Positions 1 through 55,539 of a stretch of DNA of 64,000 nt are shown in pieces; the stretch's first letter is position 1; every line of letters begins with the position of its first letter. The notes beneath the pieces were generated by a model, which was given only the letters and a program-made list of their open reading frames with translations, had not been told where the DNA came from and ran no database searches. A program made the translations under genes and the position numbers. Source of the DNA: Stenocarpella maydis (lineage: Eukaryota; Ascomycota; Sordariomycetes; Diaporthales; Diaporthaceae); NCBI GenBank assembly GCA_002270565.1, contig NQMI01000057.1, forward strand, positions 1-64,000, in the 5' to 3' direction.

Positions 1-2239
1 ACCAGCACAACTAAGCAGTCACCTTTCTTTACACTCTATAGATACAAACCTCAGGCATATTACAAATTACTACCAAATAACACCCCAGCAGAATCAACGG
101 AATAAAAAGCAACACAAATCAAACAAATCCAGAAGGATATTCAAGCAGAACTTTCTTTTATATAGGAGCGAATATTAAAATATATAAATCAGAAGAGAAT
201 TAAGGGACCAATTCTCAAGAAGAAAGATAGAGTCTATCTCCTTTACCAAAATATTAAAACCAAGCAACCCAGCAAAAAGCTTAATTATAAGAAAATCAGC
301 CTCTTCAAAATTTCAAGGAAACTTTTAAATACTAACTATAAACTCTTACTACCCAAGGAAATAAAATAGCATCCAGTCTTTTACATTTTACTCTTAGAAC
401 CAGCACTTAAAAATATAAAACTTAAAATACAGATTAAAACACTTAATAAATATAATAAAGAATATAAAGTAAAAAACATTATAGACTTAAGGCAGCACTA
501 AGGAATAATGGAATACCTTATTAAGTGGAAAGGCTATAACTCTAGCGAGAATATATAGGAACCAGCCCAAAATTTAACCCACTATTATAATAAACTCAAA
601 TGATACTATGTACAAACCACTATAGAATAGTTCCAGAAGCTAGGAATGCAGCCTAGAGACCCTATATATAACAAACCACAACAAACCAACATTATAATAA
701 AACTACATAATAAACCCCAGACTTTACGGCTAAAACAGAGAAAACAACTAATAAGAGACTACTTACAAGAGGGATAGCCTAAAAGCTAGCAATCAGCTAA
801 CCCCTCAAAAGATACACCAATACTAGTTGCCCTATCCAACCAATAACCTGAATACTAGTTACATCCAAAAACCCATCTAAATAAATACCAGTATCCGCAC
901 CCCATACCCTAGCGAATACTAGTTACAGAAAAACAAGACCAGAACAATACAGCACGACTAGTAAACCAAGAACGGCTAGGAACCAGGACCAGTTAGGCAA
1001 CAATCAAACAAGTTCCATTCCCAGTAATAAAATCAGGCACTAAGACAAGCCACCCATAGGCGCATTTCCTTCACCACCCTCACTACTAGTACCCACAAAT
1101 TCAGATCAATTAGTATCATTACCCATTAGGGAACTTTAATTAAAAACTCCTACTTCACCCTCAGAATGCAACTACGCCTCCTATACTACCATCCTACCAG
1201 CCTCCTTAGTAGAACCTTAGCAAACAACCTTAATAGATTATATAGTAATCCGCCTCTACTCTACTTTAGCCTCCTCCTTCTCCACCCGCTCTAACTCCTC
1301 TACATTATTAATACCCTAATAGACCGCATATATTATCTTTTTATAGTACAACTACTTCTACTTATAAAGGTATAAAATTCTTGTATTTAGCCATTAAGCC
1401 TCCTTCTCTATGGCTTCTAGCTCTTTCTCCAGTCAACAGTGTGTCAAGATAACCTTATTTAACTAATTAGGAGTAAGACCTTGGATATTATAGTTGGATA
1501 GATTAAGGTGAATATAGATCTAATAGCAAACAGATTCTGAATCTGCAACCTTATAGTTCTTAGCCAGGTTGTGCTCCTTATAATAAGAATAAGGTATAGG
1601 AATAATGCTACCCTTTAAAGTAATAGCAAAAAGAAGAGCGGCCTTATACTTAGCAATGGAAAAGGACTTTATAGGATAAGACTTAGTAACCCTACCTAAT
1701 ATAATGAATTAGGAAGGAGTAAATAAGAATGTGGATAAGCGAAAATAACTTATGGAATACTTTTAAGGATAAAAGAAGTAAGAAGGGAGATAGTGTTATA
1801 AACCAATATATATTAGCGGCTGACTACTGCAGAAGACAACCCCGCAGGTCGGGAAGTAGCCCCTAGAAGGAGCGCCCTGCCTAATCCAATTAGTAATGCC
1901 ACCTTATCAGGGTTAGGGTCAGGGACCCACTACGATTAATAAGATCATTATTAATTCTATTAAGCAATACTCAATCAACAGAATTACCATTAATACTATT
2001 AATAATAAATAAAGAGTCAGAATATATAAGGATATAGTTATCACCATATTAGGTATTCTTTATAGAATAGACTCTTCAGTCATTAATCTAAGTATTTAAT
2101 CCCAACGTTAAATAGCCTTGCAGCTAGTAATTATTATTAAGTTAATAATATTGCTTAATAATCGCCTAATAATATATTCCGAATATAAACCCTTAATCTT
2201 TCAGGATTAACGTACTCGGAAACCCCTTTGATCATTACA
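1..2239 (+). mobile_element. RIP-decayed Ty3/gypsy LTR retrotransposon, 3' part
   Basis: The plus strand reads, through many stops, as the end of a Ty3/gypsy polyprotein. Around 220-310 it gives the segment after the integrase core (DRVYLLYQNIKTKQPSKKL). Around 505-603 it gives a chromodomain (EYLIKWKGYNSSEN, stop, EPAQNL). The stops replace expected Gln (CAA/CAG) and Trp (TGG) codons, the C-to-T pattern of RIP. About 1.2 kb of further internal DNA separates the chromodomain from a 3' LTR-like segment. The 5' part lies outside the window. A related copy lies inverted at 51638-53943. No intact product can be made. Confidence 0.85.
1795..2239 (+). repeat. LTR-like segment of the left Ty3/gypsy element
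   Basis: It starts at TGTTATAA just after a purine-rich tract (GTAAGAAGGGAGATAG) shared with the right-hand element, and ends about GATCATTACA. The distal half (2017-2239) aligns in inverse orientation with 51638-51870, including AGTCAGAATATATAAGGATA and the stretch around CTCGGAAACCC. The proximal part has diverged, so the two LTRs may belong to different subfamilies. Ends are approximate. Confidence 0.65.
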
Positions 2240-2961
2240 TTAATCTAAGTATTTAGTCCTATTAACTGAATAGCCTTATAGCTTCTGATTATACCCTCTT
2301 CGTGAATAGTGTCTTTATATACTGCAACTTAGTTAAGTATTACCTCTATGCCGCTCTGCTCACATAAACCCTATAGGTTACCTACTGAACCCTATAAAGA
2401 TTTGATGTGATCATTATACCCAGATTAGGGGGGGCCCAAATGTGGGCCACCCACGTTATAAATAATTATAATAGCTTATAAAACAATACTATTAGGTGTA
2501 AAGACTCCTTTAAGGACCCTATATAAGTTAATAGCTAGACTTATAAAGATTATGAAAGGTAATAATATATTAAGTAATTACTAACTTAGTAATAATAATA
2601 ACTCTAATATTTAAGAAATATACTAATGAAATTATTTTAATCTTGATAGGTTTAATTAAATTATATTAAACCCTAATAAGGTCCTTAAAACTTGCCTTAA
2701 CTATTTAATACTAAATGCAGGTTAGACCTCCTATCCCTTAGCTATAGTTGCATCTAATAATACTCTTAAAAATGATAATTCTAACACTAATAGCTATAAT
2801 TATCTAATTAATATATATATATAAAGTTTAGTAAGAAGAAAAAGTCCCTTATTAAGATATTTAAGTTTTCTTCAAGGGTAGGTATAGAAGCGTTTATATG
2901 CATATATAGTTGTGGGGCGGCTGGAAGGGGGGCCCTGCTGGAAGCTGGGCCGACGATGTTA
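2240..2961 (+). mobile_element. AT-rich repeat remnant ending in a GC-rich terminus
   Basis: AT-rich DNA with no open frame. Roughly 2720-2961 aligns, inverted, with 51129-51390, including the stretch TTAAGATATTTAAGTTTTC. Positions 2082-2135 and 2236-2290 are partial direct repeats of each other (CATTAATCTAAGTATTTA...). I cannot assign the element class. It ends at the 47-nt terminus listed separately, after which unique gene-bearing DNA begins. Confidence 0.6.
2915..2961 (+). repeat. 47-nt GC-rich element terminus, copy A
   Basis: A GC-rich island in AT-rich DNA. It begins GGGCGGCTGGAAGGGGGG and ends GACGATGTTA. It matches copies at 51129-51175 (minus) and 55493-55539 (plus) with a few differences, several of them C-to-T. 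Unique DNA follows the final TTA in all three cases. Confidence 0.85.
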
Positions 2962-3445
2962 TATAAATATATAAATATATAAATAATGTATAATTATAAC
3001 TCTGAAGAGGAGGGAAGAGGGAGAAGCCTAGCTCCCCTCCCAGTACTGTGCTGAAGCCTATTCATAGCCAGAAGTCTTCGCTAAGAGTATGGCTGCTGAT
3101 AAGTTGCAACTACCTAGGTACTGTTGTCTGTGTAAGGCAACTCATCGGGATTGGAAGTAGGACTAGGTAAACAAAGTTGACCGATGCCGGTAACCCAGGT
3201 ATTGAGTTACACTGATGACTCCAAAGAATGGGCTGGTGGTCACATCTAAACATTTTAATATATGTGCGATGATGGAGTTGCTATATAGATAGAAGAATAT
3301 ACAAGATTTGGCAACCAGCCAGGTTTTACAAGATACCTAGGTACAAGAAGAAAGTCCCTAATAACTTAATATCCAGGCCTGCGGTGCCGACAACATCGGT
3401 CTGGAGCACACCGGTGAATCTGAGCCACGTCACAACCACTGTGCC
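2962..3445. other. Intergenic, between repeat edge and AA9 gene
   Basis: No coding signal is seen. It begins with short AT-rich TATAAATA iterations (2961-2990), then becomes mixed sequence that includes one CTACCTAGGTA motif near 3110. It should hold the 3' UTR of the AA9 gene. Confidence 0.6.
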
Positions 3446-27126: not shown

Positions 27127-30100
27127 TCAAGCGCTGTAAATATCCTCCATCTCGACATCACCGTCCAGAACGACCGGTGGGTCTAGGAGGTAGGCCGACT
27201 CTCCGTTGTCGTCGCCGATCGGCTTATCAGCCGCCTCCTTGGTCTCCGGAGCCCCTGTCGCCCGGTCGACCTCTTTAGCCTTGTCGAATAGCGACGCATC
27301 GATCGTCCGGAGGGCCCTCAGGGATGCGAGGCTGAGGTAGTCATCGCCCATGAGACCCTGGACCTCATCGCGTGGCAGGATAGAGAATACTCGGCTCTCC
27401 CCCGGGGCCAGCTCCGGCGCTTTGGCCTTCTCGTATCGCTCAAGGAAGTCCTTGGTCGAGCAGTTGTTGAAGCGCCCCACGGCCTGGCCATCCGCCACAG
27501 CGATATCCCGCTTCAATCGCCACTCGAGTATGTCGACCTCGATGGTCTCCTCCATGACCATGTGGTAGACGTACACCGTCTTGGTCTGGCGTAAACGCAC
27601 GCAGCGGCCCAGTGCCTGCTTCATTTGGTCGTCCCATTCTCCCTGTTTCCTGCTCTCGAGCGGGGACACAAAGATGACATGGTTGGCGTTGTGCAGGTTG
27701 CTCCCTGCCGCCTGTTCCGAGCTGACCGTCTGGACAAGCACTTGGTATCTTCCCTCCTTGAATTTCTCGAGGCTGCCCGCCTCGTTCTGGTATAGCATTT
27801 CGTGCCTGACATGGCTGATATCTGCTGCAGCCAGTTCCGTATATACGTCGCTTTCAATGGCTTCATTCTGGACGAAGACCACAACTGAGTCGGAGGATTT
27901 GATGCGCCTGATAAGATTGATTAAGGCGCGGGCCTTTGGCCCATTGGTTGACCCTCCGTAAGCCACACGCGGCTCCAAGTACGAGTCGGGATCTTGCGTG
28001 ATGGCCCCGGAGAGGCTGCTTGCAGTCATGGCACGCTCGACGCTTCTGATCTTTGACAGCGGAACGCAGACGTTCTCCACCAGTCGTCGGCAATAACCAA
28101 CACCACAGACCTGGCGCTCGTCTGGACGGCCACAGATTACGTGGCCACAAATAAGCGAGACGTAGTGTGCGTCGTAGCCCTTGGCGCAGGCAGGATCGTG
28201 GCAAACCCATGTGTTCTCAAGAATATCGACCACAACTTCTTGGAGGTTACGCCTCGAATGGGCAACAATGCTGCGCTCGTGGATGGTCGTGAAGTTGTCG
28301 ATGGTTTGCATTAGGCCATCAAAGATGACTTCCATATTTCCGCCCCGGATCCTCTTCTTGCCCTTTTGAGGAAAGCTTGTGAGGCTTATGCCGCATGACT
28401 CCGGAGAGACATAGTCTTTGTCCGTTGCCGTCTTCGCCCTGTCCGCAGCCACACGGGAGATCAGGACTTCCTTCCTGTCGGTGCTCTTCGCCACCAGGCC
28501 GCGCCTGTTGCACTCCTCCTCCCAGAACATCCTCGTGTCCTTGTAGTCGACGAGCTCCTTGATGATGGCGGCAAGCTCTGCTGGGCTCGGTATCTCCATA
28601 CTCTGGAGCTCTGCCCGACGCCCTTTGTCAAGTTCCCGCAAGCGATCGAAGTTGAAACCAACAGTATCCGGTGCGGGCGATGGCGGCTCAAGCAGCCTGG
28701 AAATGGGGACAACCGTGTGCGGCTGGACTCCCGCGGAAGCATTGTAGTCGTTCTCCCAGGGAACCTTGTACGACCACTCCAGCCTCAAAAGCTCCTCTTC
28801 GGCTGCATCAAGAGCGTTGACCTCATCATAGAGGAACCACCGCCTTGAGTGAAGCGGAGTCTTGGTGAGCCAATTTCTGAAACGTTCGTAGAACTCCTTC
28901 TTGAGCTCGAAGTTTCTGCGCACCTTGTCGTTCTTGATGTCTTCCTTTTCGGGCATATGGGAGGGGATTTGCACGGGTTCTTCGCCGATCCTCATGGAAT
29001 AGAATGTATCCTTCAAGACACCTGGAAGAACTTCCAGCGGGAGACTTCGGTAACTGCCGAGCTTCTCAAGCATAGGTTCGTTCCAAATCAGCATGCGCAG
29101 GGCGGACTCAAAAGCATCCCAGCTCTGATAGTTGGAGACCTTTGCTTGGAGAACGCTCTCAACTGTGTCAGTCAAAGTCTGATAATAGCTGAGTTGGCGA
29201 TCTTCTTGCCCGTCGACCGCATCTTTCATGTTCGAGAGAGTGATGAAAACAAGCCGGTATGCGAGGAAGATCGATTTTCCGAGCAGCTCACTGCCACGAT
29301 TTTCTATGCCACGAATTTCATCTTTTGTCATTTCGAGCAACGCCTTTGCAGCTTCAAGTTCGGAATATCCGGTCAGGCCAGACTGCCTGAGGACGTCTTC
29401 CGGGGAGACTGAAGCACGAATAACGAGTGCCTCAACTGAGCGGTCATGGCCGCTATCCTTGCCTTTCCAGTCAACTCGACTCATTAAACGCCGACGAGGT
29501 TCGGCACCGACATTGTTCGCGTTGTACTGTCGGCTGCGAAGCTCAAGCTGAAGCTCGGCGTAGAACATGGACATCATCGTCGGCATGGTCAACACAATCG
29601 GCCTCTCAATTTTGGTGACACTTGTCTGCCGGTCGTTCCTTCGCATGAATTGATTCAAAAAGTCCTCACCCTTCTTGTGGCGTGTCTCTAATACCTTTGG
29701 GGAGAGGCGGCTCTGGAACAGGCTGGCAGACTCAAGATCGGAATGCGGTGCGAGCGGCTCGTGCTCGCATATTGAAGGCTGTCTTCCTTTAACCAACGGC
29801 ACCGGCCTCGCCACATGCACATTGAAAAGGCGCGCTACTCCGCAAATATCACCCAGTGTGTCAATTGGGGGTGTGCCGGAAAGCATCCACTTCGACGTCG
29901 TCGCACAGTGGGTCACAAACTCGGAAACGGGGATGTTCTCGTATGGGAATTCATCCCAGATGATGCGTGCATAGCTGAACATCTCAAAGAGTAGCAGGGG
30001 CTCCCAATCGTTGACCGCCTTCTTCGCAGACTTCGTTCCCGTTGTATGGAGCCCGGGGGGAGCGAAACTCAATAAGTCGTCGCTGTCATCAAGCTCTTCC

Positions 30101-33100
30101 TTGTTCTCCTTGATCCGATCGATCTCTTTCTGAGTTTGTCTGATCTGATTCAGGTTCTGCCGGAGGGAGTCCAGTTGCTGCCGTCTCGTAGCCTTGTCGT
30201 CTTGCTCGACAATCTGTAGAACGTCACTCAGGACCTGCCAAAAAATACTGCGAAGTTGCTTGTACCAAGCGCTGTACACTTTAGGCTGAGTTCGGACCCT
30301 GTCCAGACCATTGGTGCTGCAATACTGCGACAGCTCCGAATGGTATTTGCTGTCTAAGAATACCTTGTTACTGCAAATAACGATATCGGCCTTCCTCAGG
30401 TCAGAAACCTTAAGCTTCTGGAACGCGTTGAAGTTTTGGATCACGACGATTTTGTACTGGACTGGGTCCAGGAATCGTCTTGCCTCGTTGGCCCATTGTT
30501 GGGTCAACTGGTTGGGCACAATTACCAAAGTCGCATGGAGGTGAACGAGGCCCTTGAGATGGTCGTTCTCTTCCCGCATCTTCAGGAACTCCGTTCGGTC
30601 GGTTCCATGCTGAATATCGATCAGGCCGAGGCAAACAGCCGTCTTTCCGAAGCCCACACTATCGGCCACGATTCTACCGCGGCGAAAGATGCTTCTGTGG
30701 GCTTCGGCGTGAACGTGTATGTGCAGTCTCTCGTCGTAGATCTCGGCCACCTCGGTTTCGGTGAAAGGATCTAATCCGCTGACGGCCTCTCTGCACAGCA
30801 TCCAGTCAAGTGAATCCAGCTGCTCCGGGAACAGTGCCAATCCCTTTCGAAAGCCTGAAGGCTGCTTCGCGACATTCGGGGTACGTCGAGTGGGGGCCAA
30901 GATCTGGGGAGGGGGAAGGACAACTCGGGAGTTTTCAATCACCCCGACCTCCATATATAAGGACCCACGAGTCTCCAAACCATCCTCGTACTGCGCCGGG
31001 TGCTGGGGCAGGTAGGCGCGGGCTTGCTGAGCGAACGCGTGTCCGTTGGCGACCAGACGGATATCAACATAAGGGACGCCATCCTTCTTCAATCCAAAAG
31101 GATCAAATTTTGTTGTGACGTTGTGGTCGATGCGCAGCAGAGCCGGCTTCGCCCGCAGTTCCTGTTGATAGTTATCCTGGTCTACCGTCCTGTGTCGAGC
31201 GACCACAGGACCCGTGGCGCGCGAGCCCATGCCTTTTTCTGCCGGTGATTTGACATAAACCACTTCTGGGACCTTGGGTGCGCATTGTGCGCAGTCCGAC
31301 GAAAGCACCACCTCTTCTTGGATCACGGTAACTCTGTGGCCGGTGCCGACAAGTCCCATTTCGACCGCGGACAACGGGGCCCTGATCAATCTCGTGAGCT
31401 CCGCTAGGTCCAGCTGGTTGGTCAGGTCAAGAGTCTTGAGCGTCTCGATCACCTTGGTGGTCTCGTGCACTTTCCCGAGTACCGGGAGACACGTCGTTAG
31501 CAGGCTTTGGTACTTGTCGCACAAAAGATAGTCGGCCCCTAGGCTCTGATCACCACGCCGTCGAATGCTTGTTGGAGCTCCCTTTGGAATGTCTTTCACA
31601 CCGTCGTATTCAATGTTGGGAAAAGCTTCGATGGGTATGCCGTGCTCCTCAAAGCTCTCCCACCAGCCGTCAATAACGCATGGAGCCGATAGTTTATCTC
31701 CTTCAGCAACGAGGACGGGCCACGTTTCCACAAGTGCCTCCTTGAACTTCCGGTGGACTTGGTAGTCTTTACGCATCCGCAGCAGCCTCGGACGTATTTC
31801 CGGGTACGGGATGCGCCCCATTTCCCGGTTGATGGATGATATCACGAATGCATCCTCTATAGCCAGGCCAATCGGATTGACGTCCTTGAACAAGAAGAGC
31901 TTCTGATGGGGGCCGTAGTAAGTCCACAGCGCATTCTCCGGGTGTCCACATTCAGGATGAAATGCCCAAAAACTACCTTGAAGCTGCTTGATCGGGCGTT
32001 GGGCCTGATCAGGAAGGATCCCGAGGTCACCCACCTCCTCGAGATAGAGCCCCTGGCTCTCTTGTACACGTAGCTCCAGGGAGAAGGATACCTCGTGTTG
32101 GATCCAAAACTCCCATGATCCCGCACCAGGAAACTGGTTCAGATCTTTGGGTCCGAGAACCGCCCGGGCGATTGGCTGACAGGTGGTGAGAGTGTTGGTG
32201 AGCTTCTTCCCGGCACTTGAAAACTGGTTGAGGTGGAGGTACCAGACAATCTCTTCTCTCTCAATCATTACTCTGAGAATGAAAGTCGAGCCCGCAGTGT
32301 ATTCCAGTCGAACAGCATCGGTGATCTCGACAAACTGAAGCTGGTATGTGCTGTCGCAAAGCCCCTCGATTATGGCCTCGGCCAGTCCTCCCCGCTGGGA
32401 GTCGTCGTATGTGGATCTTAGAAGGGCATGGCTCAAACTTTGCACATATGGTTTAGTTTCGGACCGCATCCACAGGACTGGAGGGAAGTGTTTCCGGAAT
32501 TCGTATTCAGCCTGGGCATATGGCAAAGATCTCAATGTCTCCAATGTCTCTTGAGACTTCACGAGAGCATGCTCTGGGTTGCCTTTGCAGCTCTTGCAGA
32601 AGCTTTCACCACACACCGCGCAGACGTGGAGCTCGATGCTGCTGTATGGGAGGATGTGTTGGCAAACGCATCGCCGGCGAGCTCGTTCTCCCAGTGCGAG
32701 GATGTCTCGGATAACATCCTGTTGAGAGACAATGTGAGCGTACAGCTTGATATGAAGCAGCTCCTGAGGCTCATGGCTGACGTTGGGCATGCTGGTATGG
32801 AATGAATTGGGGATCTTGCCCTCTGCTTCGAAATCACCCATGTCGAACATCATGCCGAGCCAGTTGTACCCCTTGTCCTTGTCCACAAGAGCCATGGCCG
32901 AGAGTGCCGCAAGAATCACGGCGCCGACCACTGTGGTCGTCATGGCATTTCCAGCAAGGTCTTGCAGTTGGGCCTGTGTCTCAACGCTCATGTCCAAGTC
33001 CTCCACGGGGAGGCCCTGAAGCCTCAGTGATTCGTGGCCAGTGAGCGGGCGTGCGTCCAGGGTGAGCAAAGGGATAGCGTTGGGGGTAAGACAGCCAGTC

Positions 33101-35229
33101 CGACCGAATCGGACACGGGTGGGGATTCTCTCGATGTTTTGACTACAGTCAAGGACTTGTGCCTTGAATCTCAAGTCATAGAAGCCGTGGGTATCTATTC
33201 TTCCGCATAGAGTGACGAGAAATATGCCGTCCAACACGTCACTGACGCGGCAAGGCTGCCGGTTCTCCCACGCCTTCCACATTTTGGCCGGTGCATTTGA
33301 AATGGCATTTTCCTGCCAACGAATCCAAAGACGAAGGTCTGGGACGTTGTGGTCCCTTCGGAAAGCAATGTGTCTGGCCTTTGAGAAGCTCCAGTTTACC
33401 TCCCGCTCACGCACTGACTGTGCAGCAAGCTCCATCTCGTTCCGGGCTCTGTGCAATTCGAGGCTGTGTGGCGGCAGTACAAAATCGAGCACCGAGTTCG
33501 TATGAAGATGCTGGAGACGAGGCAACGTCTCGTTGAAGGCCTCGCACAGTACCTGGGCACCCTTCAAAGTAAAGGCTCGGTGGCTGAAAGCGATCATATA
33601 TTTTCGGATCCGTGTTTGCGGCAAGTGGAATAGTTTGGTATCAAGTCTGTGGACGGCGGCTGCATAGCCCATCAGTTGCATGAAGCCGCTTTCGAGAAGG
33701 CTTTCCCAAGGAGCGCTGTCCACGTTCTCGAATATCAAGATCTTCGGCTGGCGCCATTTGGCGTAATTCATGCCCGCTGCGAACGTCTTTGTCGACGTGT
33801 TCTTCATCTCGGTCTTCTCGGTCATGGCTTTGATTGCCTCATTCCAAGAAGCATCTGAGAGATGTTCATAAGAGAGCGCGTCGCCGTACTTTTCTTTCAG
33901 TGCCTCCCACTCCTTCAGTGAATTCTGAAGTCCCGAGTAGGCCTTGATCTTGGTGGTACTCAGGGAGGAGAAGTCGACGCAGGAGGTGCCTGCGATGAAA
34001 AAATCGACATCTGGGATGTGTTCTTCCGCCCCCGTGATGAGGCGTCTGCACAGTCATTAGCGGCCAACATACACAGGATGAGGGAATCGATGACTTACGC
34101 GCTCTCTGCCTGACCCCTGGCGAAGTCGTGGGCGTCTTTGAACAGCAGCTCCGGCTTGCTGTTGCGAATCAAAAAGCCCTGTTTGAAGGGTTCGATTTCG
34201 CAACCGAAGCAGTTGATGAAATTCAAAACCTTCTCCCCATCTTCGTTCTTGAGCATTTTGAAGAGAAGATTCATGATGTGGATGGGCGCGTCGGTTCCCG
34301 AGCACAGTGTGCCAACACGAAAGCAGAATCGACGAAGAAACTCCCCGAAGAGGCCCAATCCACATTCTCTGGCAACAAGCATCATCTTCTCAGTGATAGT
34401 CCATAAATCTCGAAAGGGTTCCTCGTCGCGTTTGGAAGACTCCACATCGGGGTCGATGTTCAAAGAGGGGTCATCGTCGCCGCCCCCATCTGGAGAGCCA
34501 GGGTCGTTGCCCTTGGGAGGTTTGCCCTTAGACTTCTTGTCCTTGGAGGGTTGAGCCTTCTTGGAACCACCCTTGGGGGCTTTGCCCTTGGCAGGCTCGC
34601 TCTCCGAGGGCTTGCTGGCCGGAGCATCACTCTGGCTGTTCCTGAACATATCCGTAATCGTGGTCTGTCTGAGAAACTCCGCCCCAGCGACCCGACGGTT
34701 GCCAATCCTGCGCGCCTTGGTAGGTTTTGGTACCGATGCGGAGGCTTCATTCTTGCGCTTGTTGGTAGACTCACTCTGGCCTTCCTGGTCTGTGGGTGGC
34801 CCAGTCTGGTTGCCTTGATTACCTGTCGGTTGATTGCTGTAAGCCTGATAGGTTCAGTGTTAGTGATATTGTGCTACGTGGAGCGGTATGGTGGTGGAGA
34901 TATGTGTAGTACCTGGTCATTCTCAAACCTATCGTCAGGGAAAGTAGCACAATCGAGCTGAGGCAAAGGTTGAAAGCGATTCGAGGATGGCTGGTATGCA
35001 GAGCTGATGTCTCCTGGTACGGAACCAAGCGGTATCTGTTGGCGTTGGGCGGTGTGTCAGTTATAAGACGAGTCCACGATACCGCTGTACTGAAGTCAGT
35101 AATGAGGGATTTACTTACCGCGCGATGGCTATGCTCGTCGTCAACAGCTGGGGAAGCAGAGCCAGAAGTCTGAGGCTTGTCGCCTCCTTGCCATATTGCA
35201 AGCTTTGGGTTTGACGGGTGCGGCGCCAT
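27127..35229 (-). CDS. DNMT5-type cytosine methyltransferase-SNF2 ATPase
   Basis: Four exons (35229-35119, 35035-34913, 34844-34099, 34045-27127; introns 83, 68 and 53 bp; all phases agree) give 2,632 aa. A Lys/Pro-rich disordered N-terminus precedes the C5-methyltransferase core: motif I FRVGTLCSGTDAP (253-), motif IV GTSCVDFS with catalytic Cys349, motif VI ENVDSAPW (433-), motif VIII LPQTRIRKYMIAF (468-), a target-recognition region, motif IX RPLTGHESLRLQGLP (659-) and motif X LAGNAM (690-). A Cys-rich zinc region follows (786-820). Then comes a SNF2 ATPase: GFGKT (about 1455), DEFP box (about 1690), SGTPP, a RING-like Cys/His cluster (about 2270-2310) and a helicase C-lobe with AAGSNLHNANHVIF and QALGRCVRLRQ (about 2470). 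The embedded RING is the Rad5/Rad16 arrangement. Known DNMT5 enzymes are ATP-dependent maintenance CpG methylases acting in the nucleus. No N-terminal chromodomain is visible. All catalytic motifs are intact. Confidence 0.93.
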
Positions 35230-51637: not shown

Positions 51638-52113
51638 TATAATGATCAGAGGGTTTCCGAGTACATTAAACCTGAAAGATCAAGTGTTTATGTTCGAAAT
51701 ACGTTATTAGGCGGTTATTAAGCAATATCATTAACTAATAATGATCACTAGCTATAAGGCTATCCAATACTAGAATTAAATACTTAGATTAACGACTAAA
51801 GAGTCTATCCTATAAAAGCTATCTACTATAGTAATAACCATATCCTTATATATTCCGACTCTTCAGTAGCTCATCAAGGCTCATTATTACTCATTCAATC
51901 CCGGATAAGCACTTACAGCCATTGCTCGCCATAGCTCACAGTTGCTCACGTAAGCACTATTAAGCTTGTAGGTCCTTATCTCTAACCCTGGGCCAGTAGA
52001 AGGCAGTACTGACTTAGCAGTTGGGGTCCTGTAGGGTTGTATCGTAACATTCACTCTAGGTGCCTAGGTCCTCAAAATGAGTCCCTAGGGTACCATCATG
52101 TTAGCTTATAATA
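51638..52113 (-). repeat. LTR of the right Ty3/gypsy element
   Basis: It starts after a purine tract shared with the left element (AGTAAGAAGGGAGATAG) and ends about TGATCATTATA. Its distal half matches 2017-2239. Ends are approximate. Confidence 0.7.
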
Positions 52114-52505
52114 CTATCTCCCTTCTTACTTCTTTTATCCTCAAAAGTACTCTAAGTTATTTCCATTCGTTCATACTATATTCATGCCTTCCTAATTCAT
52201 TATATTATCCAAAATTAAAGATTCTCGGGTTGTAAAAAGTTCCATCATAAGGGTATCCAAGAAGCGCCAAGCCTATCTTAATTATTATGCCTTTATTAAA
52301 CGGTATAGTTATAAAGTTGCTCCATATTTCCATTATTTGTCCAAGAATCTGGTTTACAAGATAGTTAATTCTATAGAAAGCTATTTGCAGTATATTAAGC
52401 ATGATTATTCTTATAATGCATTATGTATATTAGTATCTTCTTATAAGTATTCTATCCTTATAGGTTGTCCACATGCTAACTTTTGCAGTATTATGCATTA
52501 CTAAT

Positions 52506-52769
52506 GAGTTAGCTAAGCTGGATAGCTATAAGATTAAGGAGGAGGAGCATCTGAAAGAGGTATAGGCATAGTTCCGGAGGGCTCAGGATTCCTTAAATAA
52601 ATCTCTAGCTCATTTAGCTTATCTAAAGAAGCAAAAATGTTTTCTTTAGGAGAAAGGGGTGAAGCTAGTAAATAAGGGGTTGGTTAAGGAGGAGCGGGCT
52701 TATACTACTAAAATAGTGCAGGAGGTTATAGCTACTAAGGGGTCTCTCCCTAATCCTTATTTTAATTAG
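52506..52769 (+). pseudogene. Antisense coiled-coil ORF relic inside the Ty3/gypsy 3' region
   Basis: On the strand opposite to pol, one frame stays coding-like for about 87 codons: ELAKLDSYKIKEEEHLKEV, FRRAQDSLNKSLAHLAYLKK, QKCF, EKGVKLVNKGLVKEERAYTT. It is interrupted by three in-frame TAGs where Gln (CAG) would fit, the expected RIP change. The heptad-like Leu/charged pattern predicts a coiled coil. I recall similar short coiled-coil proteins near gypsy elements in fungal genomes, but I cannot verify this here. It is not functional in this copy. Confidence 0.6.
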
Positions 52770-53943
52770 AATTGCATAAGTACTAGAAATGTAGTAGTAG
52801 ATTAGTCTGGATTTTTAATTAGGGGTAAAGGGAATATACCTATAGATAGCTTATCTAGTTCCTAATCTTCATTTTCTAATATCCTTAAACTAATGGTATT
52901 TTTTTTAAATAGTAGGTGATTTAACTATTTAGCTAGATAATATTTATCTTTACTTATATTCTTAGTTTTAAAACTTTTTAGGAGTTTCTTATTATTACTA
53001 AGGTTTTATTTTAGTTTCTATATATTTTCACTTAAGTTATATCCTTTCTATTTAATGAGGTATTCCATCATTCCTTAGTATTATTTATAGTTTATAATTC
53101 TTTCCACTTTATATTCCTTATTATACTTATTAAGTATTTTAATCTATATTTTAAGTCTTATATTTTCAGGTGCTAGTTTTAAGAGTAAGATATAAAAAAC
53201 TAGGTATTATTTTATTCCTTCAGGTAATAAAAGTTTATAATTAGTATTTAAAAGTTTTCTTAAAATTTTAAAGGGGCTAATTTTCTTATAGTTAAGCTTG
53301 TTGCTAGGTTGCTTAGTTCTAATATTTAATAAAGAAGATAGACCTTATCTCCCTCTTTAAGAATTAGTCTTATAATTCTTTTCTGATTTATATATTTTAT
53401 TACTTATTCCTATATAAAAGAAAGTTCTACTTGGGTATCCTTTTAGATTTATCTGATTTATATTGCTTTCTATTCCGCTAATTCCACTAGGGTGTTATCT
53501 AACAGTAATTCATAATATGCCTGAGGTTTATATCTGTAGAGTGTAAAGAAAGATAACTGTTTAGTTATACTAGTAGTTATGCTATTATAAGCAAACTATG
53601 CTAATAGTAGTAGTTTAATCCAATTATCCTATAATTAGTTGATATAGTATTAAAGGTATTATTCTATAATCTGGTTGATTTATTCTATTTATCCATCTAT
53701 TTATAGGTATGCTATTATTAAGAGCTTATATTTTGCTCTAAGTTGCTTTATTAGTAACTTCCAGAAGTTTAATATAAAGAGCTTATCTCTATTTAAGATG
53801 ATTTTATATAGTATTTTGTAGTTGCTTATAATAATTTATAAGAATATATATATAAGTTCTTCTATAGTACTAGCTTCCTTATATGGTATAAAGTATGCAT
53901 ACTTGCTCAGTCTGCAAACTATTACTAGAATACTGTCATATAG

Positions 53944-53944
53944 N
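53944..53944. other. Single unknown base
   Basis: One N exactly where the truncated retroelement meets the sequence leading into the second 242-bp repeat, suggesting an uncertain assembly join. Confidence 1.
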
Positions 53945-53956
53945 CTCTTATACTAT

Positions 53957-54199
53957 ACTATTTAATTAGCTTAATAGTAAATTAAGCTAGTAAGAGGCTG
54001 CCCTACCTTAGAGGCTTCTTTCTAACTATTAAGAGGATTTATTAGCTCTATTTATAATAAATTAGAGTTATCTGGGGCTTACCCTCACCTAATATAATCT
54101 ATAGGGTCTAATAGCCCACTTAGCCTTCTTAAATAAAGACTACCCTCCTCTTAAAAGAACTTAGCTTAGGGGCTTTCTTTCTTATTATTTAGAGCTTTA
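53957..54199 (+). repeat. 243-bp repeat, right copy
   Basis: Direct repeat of 51396-51637. Together the two copies bracket the truncated Ty3/gypsy element. Confidence 0.85.
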
Positions 54200-55539
54200 A
54201 TTAAGAAAGAATTAGTATATTAAAGTCTTAAGGATTTAAGTAGCTAATAGAAAGAATATTAAGTCTTAGTTTAACCTCCTCTAGCTACCTACTATGAAGT
54301 CTATTAAACTGGCTAATTATTAGAATACTAATAAGGATAGAATTATAAAGGCTTACTTAGAGTAAGCCCTTACCTTTAGCTATATAAAGGGAAGCCTAAT
54401 TACTTAATTAGATTATGATCTCTAAGTATAAACCTCTTTCTTAAAGTATATTAATGCTTGAGGGAGAGTACTAGTTTTATTAATTACTTTTAAATGGAAA
54501 AGTATATAATAATGATAGTTTTCTATAGCTCTTAAAGATCTTAAGGGCTAGTAATTTATAGTTATAAAGAAGGGGTAAATACAGAAAGAAATAGCTATTA
54601 TATAGCTAAGGAAGGTATTTATCTCTTAAATAGCTTTAATTAACCTAAATAAGTAATATTTATTAGTAATAAATAGCTACTATACTTATACTATTATAGA
54701 TTTTATATAGGAATACATCTTATATAAATGTATATAGTCTTCTTATTAGTATATATAATATATATTTTATAGCTTCTAAATATAGTTATATTTAGTTTAC
54801 TTAAGTAGGCATTTTAGAAATATTTATACCTTCTTGAAGCTTATAATATATTAATAATTATAGCTAAATAGAGATTCTTGTATTATTATTACAAGGCTTA
54901 AGGAAAAGTATTTATAGTAGTAAATATTTATTTTAGGTAGAGAAAAATAAGGTTATAGCTAATTAATTAAGTAAGAATGTTATTAGGTAACTATATTTTT
55001 AAAATTATTAAATAGAGATTAATATTAAAAAGTTTATTATTAGAAATACCTTTATTAATAAAAATAAAGTATATAAATCTAAATCTTAGCTTTTAAATAT
55101 TATTTTTAAGATACTTAAGTAATCATAAAAGTTAAGGTTGATAATAGCTAATTATACCTATTAGAAATACTTAAGCCCTATATAATAAGTATTCTTTAGA
55201 AAAATTCTTAAGGAATATAATAAGAAAGAGTTTAACCTAATAATATCCTTAAAAAAATAAGGAGCTATAGGGTAAAATTAAGGCCTATATAAAGATCTAG
55301 AGGAAGAAGGTCTAAATTAACCTAAATAAGACTTTTGCTGATATTAAGGCTATTTAGAGGATTTAAATTAAGGCCGGGGCTGTATTGCCTGATAGCGATG
55401 ATTCTAATGATTCCTTAATACCAATAGAAGAGGGCTCGGTAATAGTTGTGGCGGGAAATTAACGTTGGGAATAGTGGCATGGTGGGTGGGTAGGGCGGCC
55501 GGAAGGGGGGCCCGGCCGGAAGCCGGGGCGACGATGTTA
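54200..55539 (+). mobile_element. Decayed transposon, possibly DNA type, with GC-rich 3' terminus
   Basis: AT-rich and full of stops, but the plus strand has coding-like patches. Near 54297 it reads MKSIKLANY, stop, NTNKDRIIKAYLE. Near 55330-55460 it reads FADIKAI then VLPDSDDSNDSLIPIEEGSV IVVAGN before a stop. An acidic Ser/Asp tail ending IVVA is reminiscent of fungal pogo/Fot transposases, but no DDE core is readable, so the class is a guess. The final stop lies about 30 bp before the 47-nt GC-rich terminus, suggesting this terminus is the 3' end of the element. Confidence 0.4.
55493..55539 (+). repeat. 47-nt GC-rich element terminus, copy C
   Basis: Identical to copy B. After ...GATGTTA the sequence changes at once to normal-composition unique DNA. 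Confidence 0.9.

Follow-up and report, generated by a model that had tools for sequence, protein, structure and literature searches.

The window analysed here comprises 64,000 nucleotides of the fungus Stenocarpella maydis (positions 1 to 64,000 of contig NQMI01000057.1). Its reverse strand carries a single intact gene of the DNMT5 class, which joins a DNA methyltransferase to a SNF2 ATPase and probably encodes a secondary CpG maintenance enzyme, copying marks that are laid mainly by a different methyltransferase, DIM-2. The order of the modules, the catalytic and ATPase residues and the phylogenetic grouping of the protein all point to DNMT5. A DNMT5 gene as such is a known kind of gene and is ordinary for an ascomycete. 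The initial annotation had implied that an ATPase-type methylase is unusual in this group, a view that does not agree with PMC8091789, whose available text ascribes both Dim2 and Dnmt5 to most ascomycetes and gives DIM-2, RID and DNMT5 as the commonest combination. According to the text available of PMC12543289, most Sordariomycetes have lost Dnmt5, which makes the gene less usual for that class; many Sordariomycete DNMT5 homologues are among the matches listed. Two features look new and deserve specialist attention, namely a motif resembling a PCNA-interacting protein (PIP) box in DNMT5 and, elsewhere in the genome, a RID paralogue that lacks the catalytic loop. Neither is reported in the titles and abstract openings among the literature matches listed.

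The DNMT5 splice model runs from an ATG at position 35229 to position 27127 on the reverse strand, and encodes 2,632 amino acids in four exons, exactly as first annotated. Its introns (35118-35036, 34912-34845 and 34098-34046) have GT-AG ends. Exon 1 (35119..35229) encodes a MAPHPxxPxLPIW-like start that is common to several other Diaporthe DNMT5 proteins. Where exon 2 (34913..35035) ends and exon 3 begins is uncertain, because an alternative intron 2 (34928-34837) would give a protein of 2,624 amino acids, 8 residues fewer. Exon 3 (34099..34844) encodes a poorly conserved N-terminus, the PIP-like motif and methyltransferase motif I (CSGTDAP). Exon 4 (27127..34045) encodes methyltransferase motifs IV-X, a Cys-rich zinc region and the SNF2 lobes with their intervening RING, and ends with the stop codon. 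An uninterrupted open frame of 2,308 codons (34053-27127, reverse strand) bears out the proposal of a single frame with methyltransferase, zinc region, SNF2 ATPase and RING. A splice search restricted to strict donors gave no model, and the splicing is predicted from the sequence and its homologues. The gene is free of damage by repeat-induced point mutation (RIP), with a composite RIP index between -0.48 and -1.16 across the 1-kb windows from 27 to 36 kb.

Three Pfam families match the protein above their cut-offs: DNA_methylase (5e-11), SNF2-rel_dom (1.4e-10) and Helicase_C (2.2e-08). The RING has no Pfam match and was assigned from its conserved Cys/His spacing. Fifteen motif stretches, covering methyltransferase motifs I-X, the zinc region, the SNF2 motifs and the RING, were aligned with homologues, and the window's protein matches every position that is invariant among them (80-85 records at motif I, 112-115 at motif IV, 118 at the zinc region and 119-120 at most others). 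Methyltransferase motifs I, IV (SCVDFS), VI (ENV), VIII, IX and X are all present. Catalytic Cys349 is kept in all 112 homologues aligned there, and the ENV residue Glu433 in 120/120. The zinc-region cysteines (786, 788, 802, 805, 810 and 813) occur in the window's protein and in 118/118 aligned homologues. The SNF2 ATPase has Walker A, the DE box and motifs III, V and VI, with the RING between its lobes. Its Walker lysine (Lys1461), Asp1691-Glu1692 and the residues Arg2474, Arg2477 and Gln2480 are each found in 120/120 homologues, as are C2275, C2293, H2295, C2298, C2307 and C2312 of the RING.

At E <= 0.001, 131 proteins were recovered from the protein database, of which 120 were listed and used. 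The best named homologues among the matches listed are Diaporthe proteins (57-67% identity), which places the nearest named relatives in the order Diaporthales and agrees with the first description of the source as an ascomycete. The next are from Cytospora, Coniella, Gnomoniopsis and Discula, followed by Xylariales, Colletotrichum, Verticillium and other fungi. The 2,308-aa query is covered along its whole length (100%) by six named Diaporthe proteins, which are 2,546-2,661 amino acids long. The only relative of solved structure at E <= 0.001 is Dnmt5 of Cryptococcus neoformans (7r76/7r77/7r78/7t02, E 2.9e-102), and the match spans the methyltransferase, SNF2 and Helicase_C parts. When the first SNF2 lobe alone is compared with the PDB, Rad5 appears only at E 0.13; the C-terminal part matches other SNF2 proteins from E 0.0012.

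Both enzymatic domains also group with DNMT5 in phylogenetic trees, apart from DIM-2, the RIDs and the genome's own SNF2 stretches, which supports the proposed identity. In the methyltransferase tree, all 32 DNMT5 rows lie on one side of a branch with a support of 100 in the Shimodaira-Hasegawa-like approximate likelihood ratio test (SH-aLRT). The rows of this tree are the window's protein with 31 chosen from the 120 DNMT5 homologues, the DIM-2 of the same genome, ten RID-like sequences and the first exon of an HhaI-like gene. In the SNF2 tree, 19/19 DNMT5 rows (the window's protein and 18 chosen from the 120) split from eight SNF2 stretches of the same genome, also with an SH-aLRT of 100. These eight were taken from 32 matches and carry no individual Rad5 or Rad16 naming. 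Both trees are quick maximum-likelihood trees without bootstrap, and long branches are flagged in both, so they are used here for the DNMT5 grouping alone and not for relations between families.

The protein shares with C. neoformans Dnmt5 the order of its methyltransferase, SNF2 and Helicase_C domains, and the catalytic and ATPase motifs of the two align. It differs in having no recognisable chromodomain and a poorly conserved N-terminus with a PIP-like motif, and the S. maydis genome differs in also carrying DIM-2 and RID-like genes. No chromodomain was matched by Pfam at 1e-3 in the frames holding exon 1 and exon 3, a scan that had no positive control and did not cover the 41-aa exon 2 in its own frame. 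None appears in the precomputed Pfam lists of the 120 listed homologues either, 43 of which are without all or most of the N-terminus. Dnmt5 of Verticillium dahliae is likewise a Sordariomycete DNMT5 found beside Dim2 and Rid, and its N-terminal chromo region is also missing (PMC8091789, available text), so a chromodomain does not define the wider DNMT5 family. The V. dahliae protein is distant, as judged by a relative from V. albo-atrum (P0073, 26% over 36% of the query) that stands in for the V. dahliae sequence itself. Much closer are the DNMT5 proteins of D. citri and D. eres (P0001 and P0002, annotated as hypothetical proteins), which align with the full query (100%) at 67% identity and have a similar start, the same Pfam domains and the PIP-like motif.

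The S. maydis genome (53.5 Mb in 312 contigs) was scanned for other methylation genes, and matches to PF00145 fall in six genes, including the window's DNMT5. One of them, on contig C100 (locus L011), is DIM-2, which matches 9bap and 9baq with E-values of 1.1e-297 and 1.6e-296. Two more are RID-like genes with the SPPCQ motif, on contigs C295 (L010) and C260 (L012). The genome also has an SRA-domain gene (contig C243:33380-33878, L014, reverse strand), which was matched in two adjoining pieces that are presumably split by an intron. The SRA gene is a candidate for a UHRF1-like reader serving DNMT5. PMC10538959 already has a table of SRA-only fungal homologues of UHRF1, and PMC13297926 names it as an open question whether DNMT5 is served by UHRF1-like adaptors outside Cryptococcus, each in the part of the text available.

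A mechanism for the S. maydis enzyme can be proposed by analogy with C. neoformans Dnmt5. Binding to hemimethylated CpG would switch on the SNF2 ATPase; ATP binding would complete base flipping, and the new-strand cytosine would then be methylated. The enzyme would in this way copy CpG marks laid down mainly by DIM-2, and the SRA-domain protein probably helps it. Without a recognisable chromodomain, DNMT5 would be brought to DNA by some other route, possibly through PCNA by way of its N-terminal PIP-like motif. Together, the SRA gene and this motif make the adaptor and replication-independence points of PMC13297926 testable in S. maydis.

The PIP-like motif, RQTTITDMF, occupies residues 137-145 (34644..34670, reverse strand). 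The same segment reads RQTTITSMF in D. citri and RQRTITDMY in D. eres. It resembles the PIP box of human DNMT1 (RQTTITSHF), with which it shares 7 of 9 residues, and the D. citri segment shares 8 of 9. For the human box, numbered 161-180, the table of PMC7225939 gives a Kd of 1 uM and PDB 6K3A. The PIP pattern is Q-x-x-aliphatic-x-x-aromatic-aromatic, and the first aromatic residue is missing in RQTTITDMF, as it is in the measured DNMT1 box. However, human DNMT1 belongs to another methyltransferase class and has no SNF2 domain, and PCNA binding by DNMT5 is putative. Identity among S. maydis, D. citri and D. eres is 0.64 over the 22-residue stretch around the motif versus 0.38 across the loose N-terminus. 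Four of 171 N-terminal windows score as high or higher, and the best (0.68) starts one residue before the motif. Nothing in the PDB matched a 23-aa query containing the motif at E <= 10.

A relaxed PIP pattern occurs in 4/77 homologue N-termini, two of which are sister Diaporthe records, versus 0.57 expected by shuffling, or about 1.4 when the expectation is taken from the density of the pattern outside the N-termini. The strict pattern occurs in 2/77 (0.30 expected) and a permissive one in 4/77 (0.94 expected). These counts leave out 36 of the 120 records with no recognisable boundary and 7 with too short an N-terminus; a narrower N-terminal boundary gives 3/23 for the relaxed pattern and 1/23 for the strict one. 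With such frequencies, a PIP box was rejected as a feature of the DNMT5 family. Single other DNMT5 proteins carry PIP-like motifs, among them that of Cytospora mali (RQMRLEHYF) and one further protein with KQTSIASFFKPK. The count against chance is suggestive but no proof, and the likeness to DNMT1 was spotted after the fact. It is tentatively proposed, as a possibility that is on balance doubtful, that the DNMT5 of S. maydis, D. citri and D. eres gained a DNMT1-type PIP box, or kept one that relatives lost, which would tether ATP-driven CpG maintenance to PCNA at the replication fork. If true, this would contradict the idea that DNMT5 acts separately from the replication machinery; the 2026 review PMC13297926 states, in its available text, that DNMT5 acts independently of the replication apparatus.

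RIP-like repeats had been noted along with the gene, and the window does contain them. A RIP-damaged multi-copy repeat occupies 1..2240, and two that adjoin each other (52001-53943 and 53947-54996) occupy 52001..54996. Searches with the AT-rich segments 1-3000 and 52001-55000, in each of which only 40 candidates were scored, gave 48 and 69 matches, the query's own included. Eight 1-kb windows, at 1-3 kb and 51-56 kb, have a TpA/ApT of 1.28-1.59 and an observed/expected ratio of 0.19-0.67 for CpA; that for CpG is 0.00-0.79, and below 0.6 in six of the eight. The CpG ratio is 0.58-1.10 in the other 56 windows. For each of the three repeats, copies from the 20 loci that were retrieved in each search were compared in pairs, in 13, 8 and 22 aligned pieces; only the third set includes the window's own copy. 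C/T differences, given as the share of aligned C sites at which one copy has C and the other T, are concentrated at CpA (0.74, 0.77 and 0.69) and CpG (0.66, 0.82 and 0.54), versus 0.27, 0.17 and 0.16 at CpT and 0.25, 0.12 and 0.12 at CpC. Thus, C/T differences at CpG are about as frequent as at CpA, somewhat less so in two sets and slightly more so in one, although the pairs share copies and are not independent, and the first two sets contain few CpG comparisons (595 and 155 pairs).

CpG ranks low as a RIP target in Neurospora. There, CpA is preferred, according to the available text of PMC8016269. The damage at CpG in S. maydis fits RIP acting at CpG and fits equally the decay of methylated CpG. 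Strand coupling does not separate the two; agreement is 0.47, 0.55 and 0.58 at CpG and 0.60, 0.67 and 0.70 at CpA, with 0.46, 0.49 and 0.46 at CpT and 0.56 in each set at CpC. The CpG sites left per aligned piece number 1-17 (pieces of 0.6-1.9 kb), 1-11 (0.9-1.1 kb) and 10-36 (1.0-3.0 kb). Because old repeats keep so few CpG sites, DNMT5 would have less substrate and less work at heavily RIP-mutated copies. Competition between DNMT5 and RIP is supported only in the sense that the damage removes CpG sites that DNMT5 would maintain, and any special conflict between the two is hypothetical.

In DNMT5 and DIM-2 alike, the S. maydis lineage has accumulated changes at roughly double the rate of D. 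citri and D. eres. Relative-rate comparisons with D. citri and the outgroup D. ilicicola give 256 residues unique to S. maydis versus 132 unique to D. citri for DNMT5 (p 3.1e-10), 56 versus 22 for DIM-2 (p 1.2e-4) and 54 versus 28 for the RID paralogue (p 0.004). With D. australafricana as the outgroup, the RID paralogue gives 51 versus 34 (p 0.065). Over the Diaporthe outgroups, residues unique to S. maydis are 1.5 to 2.7 times those unique to D. citri in the three genes, and to D. eres in DNMT5 and DIM-2. Because DIM-2 and the RID paralogue are also faster, the speed-up looks lineage-wide, as far as these three genes, with no housekeeping gene, can represent the lineage, and the idea that DNMT5 is decaying or specially relaxed here was rejected. 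A lineage-wide speed-up is weakened by a Cytospora outgroup, which leaves DNMT5 significant (184 versus 111, p 2.1e-5) but not DIM-2 (33 versus 24, p 0.23; 36 versus 23 in the comparison with D. eres, p 0.091). Relative to D. batatas, the S. maydis DNMT5 is not faster (223 versus 288).

Several observations weigh against a maintenance role for DNMT5 in S. maydis, or against its proposed recruitment. In V. dahliae, Dim2 does most methylation and loss of Dnmt5 changed very few windows (PMC8091789, available text), so that the activity of ascomycete DNMT5 is poorly shown. DNMT5 is changing faster than DIM-2, with 69% identity to D. citri versus 86% over the columns compared. The PIP-like segment is missing in five other named Diaporthe DNMT5 proteins and in one further close homologue, and so cannot be a general mode of DNMT5 recruitment. 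It is worth considering, though unlikely, that this DNMT5-family protein is no longer relevant to methylation and is kept as an ATPase acting on DNA or chromatin, or as a factor resembling a ubiquitin ligase. The V. dahliae single mutant keeps nearly all methylation, and its authors suggest other DNA processes (PMC8091789); moreover, Diaporthales DNMT5 proteins have a long stem branch in the methyltransferase tree, which indicates fast sequence change. However, the invariance of the catalytic Cys in all 112 aligned homologues, and of the ENV Glu-Asn in 120/120, would be unexpected if only the ATPase were needed. The low residual CG methylation of Zymoseptoria strains without functional dim2 is presumed by the authors to be kept by Dnmt5 (PMC8016269, available text), which also weighs against this alternative.

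The initial annotation suggested that DNMT5 may maintain methylation in this fungus and may interact or compete with RIP, which can be read as DNMT5 being the main maintainer in competition with RIP at repeats. The DNMT5 identity and the RIP damage on which it drew hold, both systems are present, and the C/T shares at CpG (0.54-0.82) beside those at CpA (0.69-0.77) suggest that repeat CpGs may have been methylated. Nevertheless, methylation need not rest on DNMT5, because the genome also has an intact DIM-2 and two RID-like genes with the PCQ motif; in both Verticillium and Zymoseptoria, DIM-2 is the main contributor. RIP that targets CpG would explain the CpG loss equally well, and the repeat copies retain few CpG sites. 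This stronger reading is quite improbable. That two neighboring genes, a methyltransferase and a SNF2 ATPase, were misread as one can be dismissed, because motifs IV-X, the zinc region, the ATPase and the RING lie in a single 2,308-aa frame and named homologues from Diaporthe match this protein in length and order.

The loop-less RID paralogue (contig C246, L013:3449-5887, forward strand) lacks the SPPCQ motif. It has SSS and a seven-column gap where RIDs read SPPCQxWSPAHT. The gap is found in 34/34 sequences, namely the S. maydis paralogue and all 33 of its closest homologues (P0121-P0153 of 40 hits) in a search whose scoring was limited to the 7,993 candidates with the most words in common. 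Seven of the 33 carry organism names, each of them Diaporthe. PCQ is kept in the nine other RID-like sequences aligned, which are the S. maydis genes on C295 and C260 and P0154-P0160. The paralogue group largely retains motifs I, VIII, IX and X, with a looser motif VI. The D. citri paralogue models as a DNMT1-like fold. Its methyltransferase domain is confident, with a predicted local distance difference test (pLDDT) score of at least 90 at 321 of 806 residues, under 50 at 290, and a mean of 68.2; the predicted template modeling score (pTM) is 0.64. The model matches the structures of DNMT1, MET1, ZMET2 and DIM-2 (best E 3.4e-24), with TM-scores of 0.20-0.63, mostly low, among the best 50 rows.

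Anisogramma is a member of the Diaporthales. Two rid genes are reported in this genus by PMC10998396 (available text). According to the available text of PMC6709928, the motif-IV cysteine is invariant in all eukaryotic C5 methyltransferases, and a Podospora RID with C403S fails. We infer that the RIP arm of Diaporthe may include a conserved, catalytically dead RID paralogue, which could partner and regulate active RID in the way that DNMT3L does for DNMT3A. In a separate observation, P0127 is a RID-family protein of D. amygdali that belongs to the loop-less group, although the available text of a 2025 genome paper, PMC12526002, reports that BLASTn gave no rid homologue in that species. With DIM-2, DNMT5, the SRA gene, two PCQ-bearing RID-like genes and a loop-less RID paralogue in one genome, whose repeats show C-to-T damage at CpG as well as CpA, S. 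maydis offers a test case.

The sixth PF00145 gene (contig C134, L009:2201-4178, reverse strand) encodes a C5-methyltransferase that is closest in the PDB to M.HhaI, and its match is split over two frames. It was possibly acquired from bacteria. Two prokaryote contig scans revealed no relatives at the sensitivity of the peptide patterns used. A chromo-shadow domain gene occurs on contig C279. A zf-4CXXC_R1 domain (contig C266:75444-75650, L057, forward strand) lies in a 1,364-aa frame, and the protein may be DMM-1-like rather than CDCA7.

Within the window, Rfam scans and a tRNA scan found nothing. Pfam searches of ten other large open frames found no DNA methylation families. Families were recognized in five of these frames: a metallophosphatase, an ABC transporter, two fungal transcription factors and an MFS transporter.

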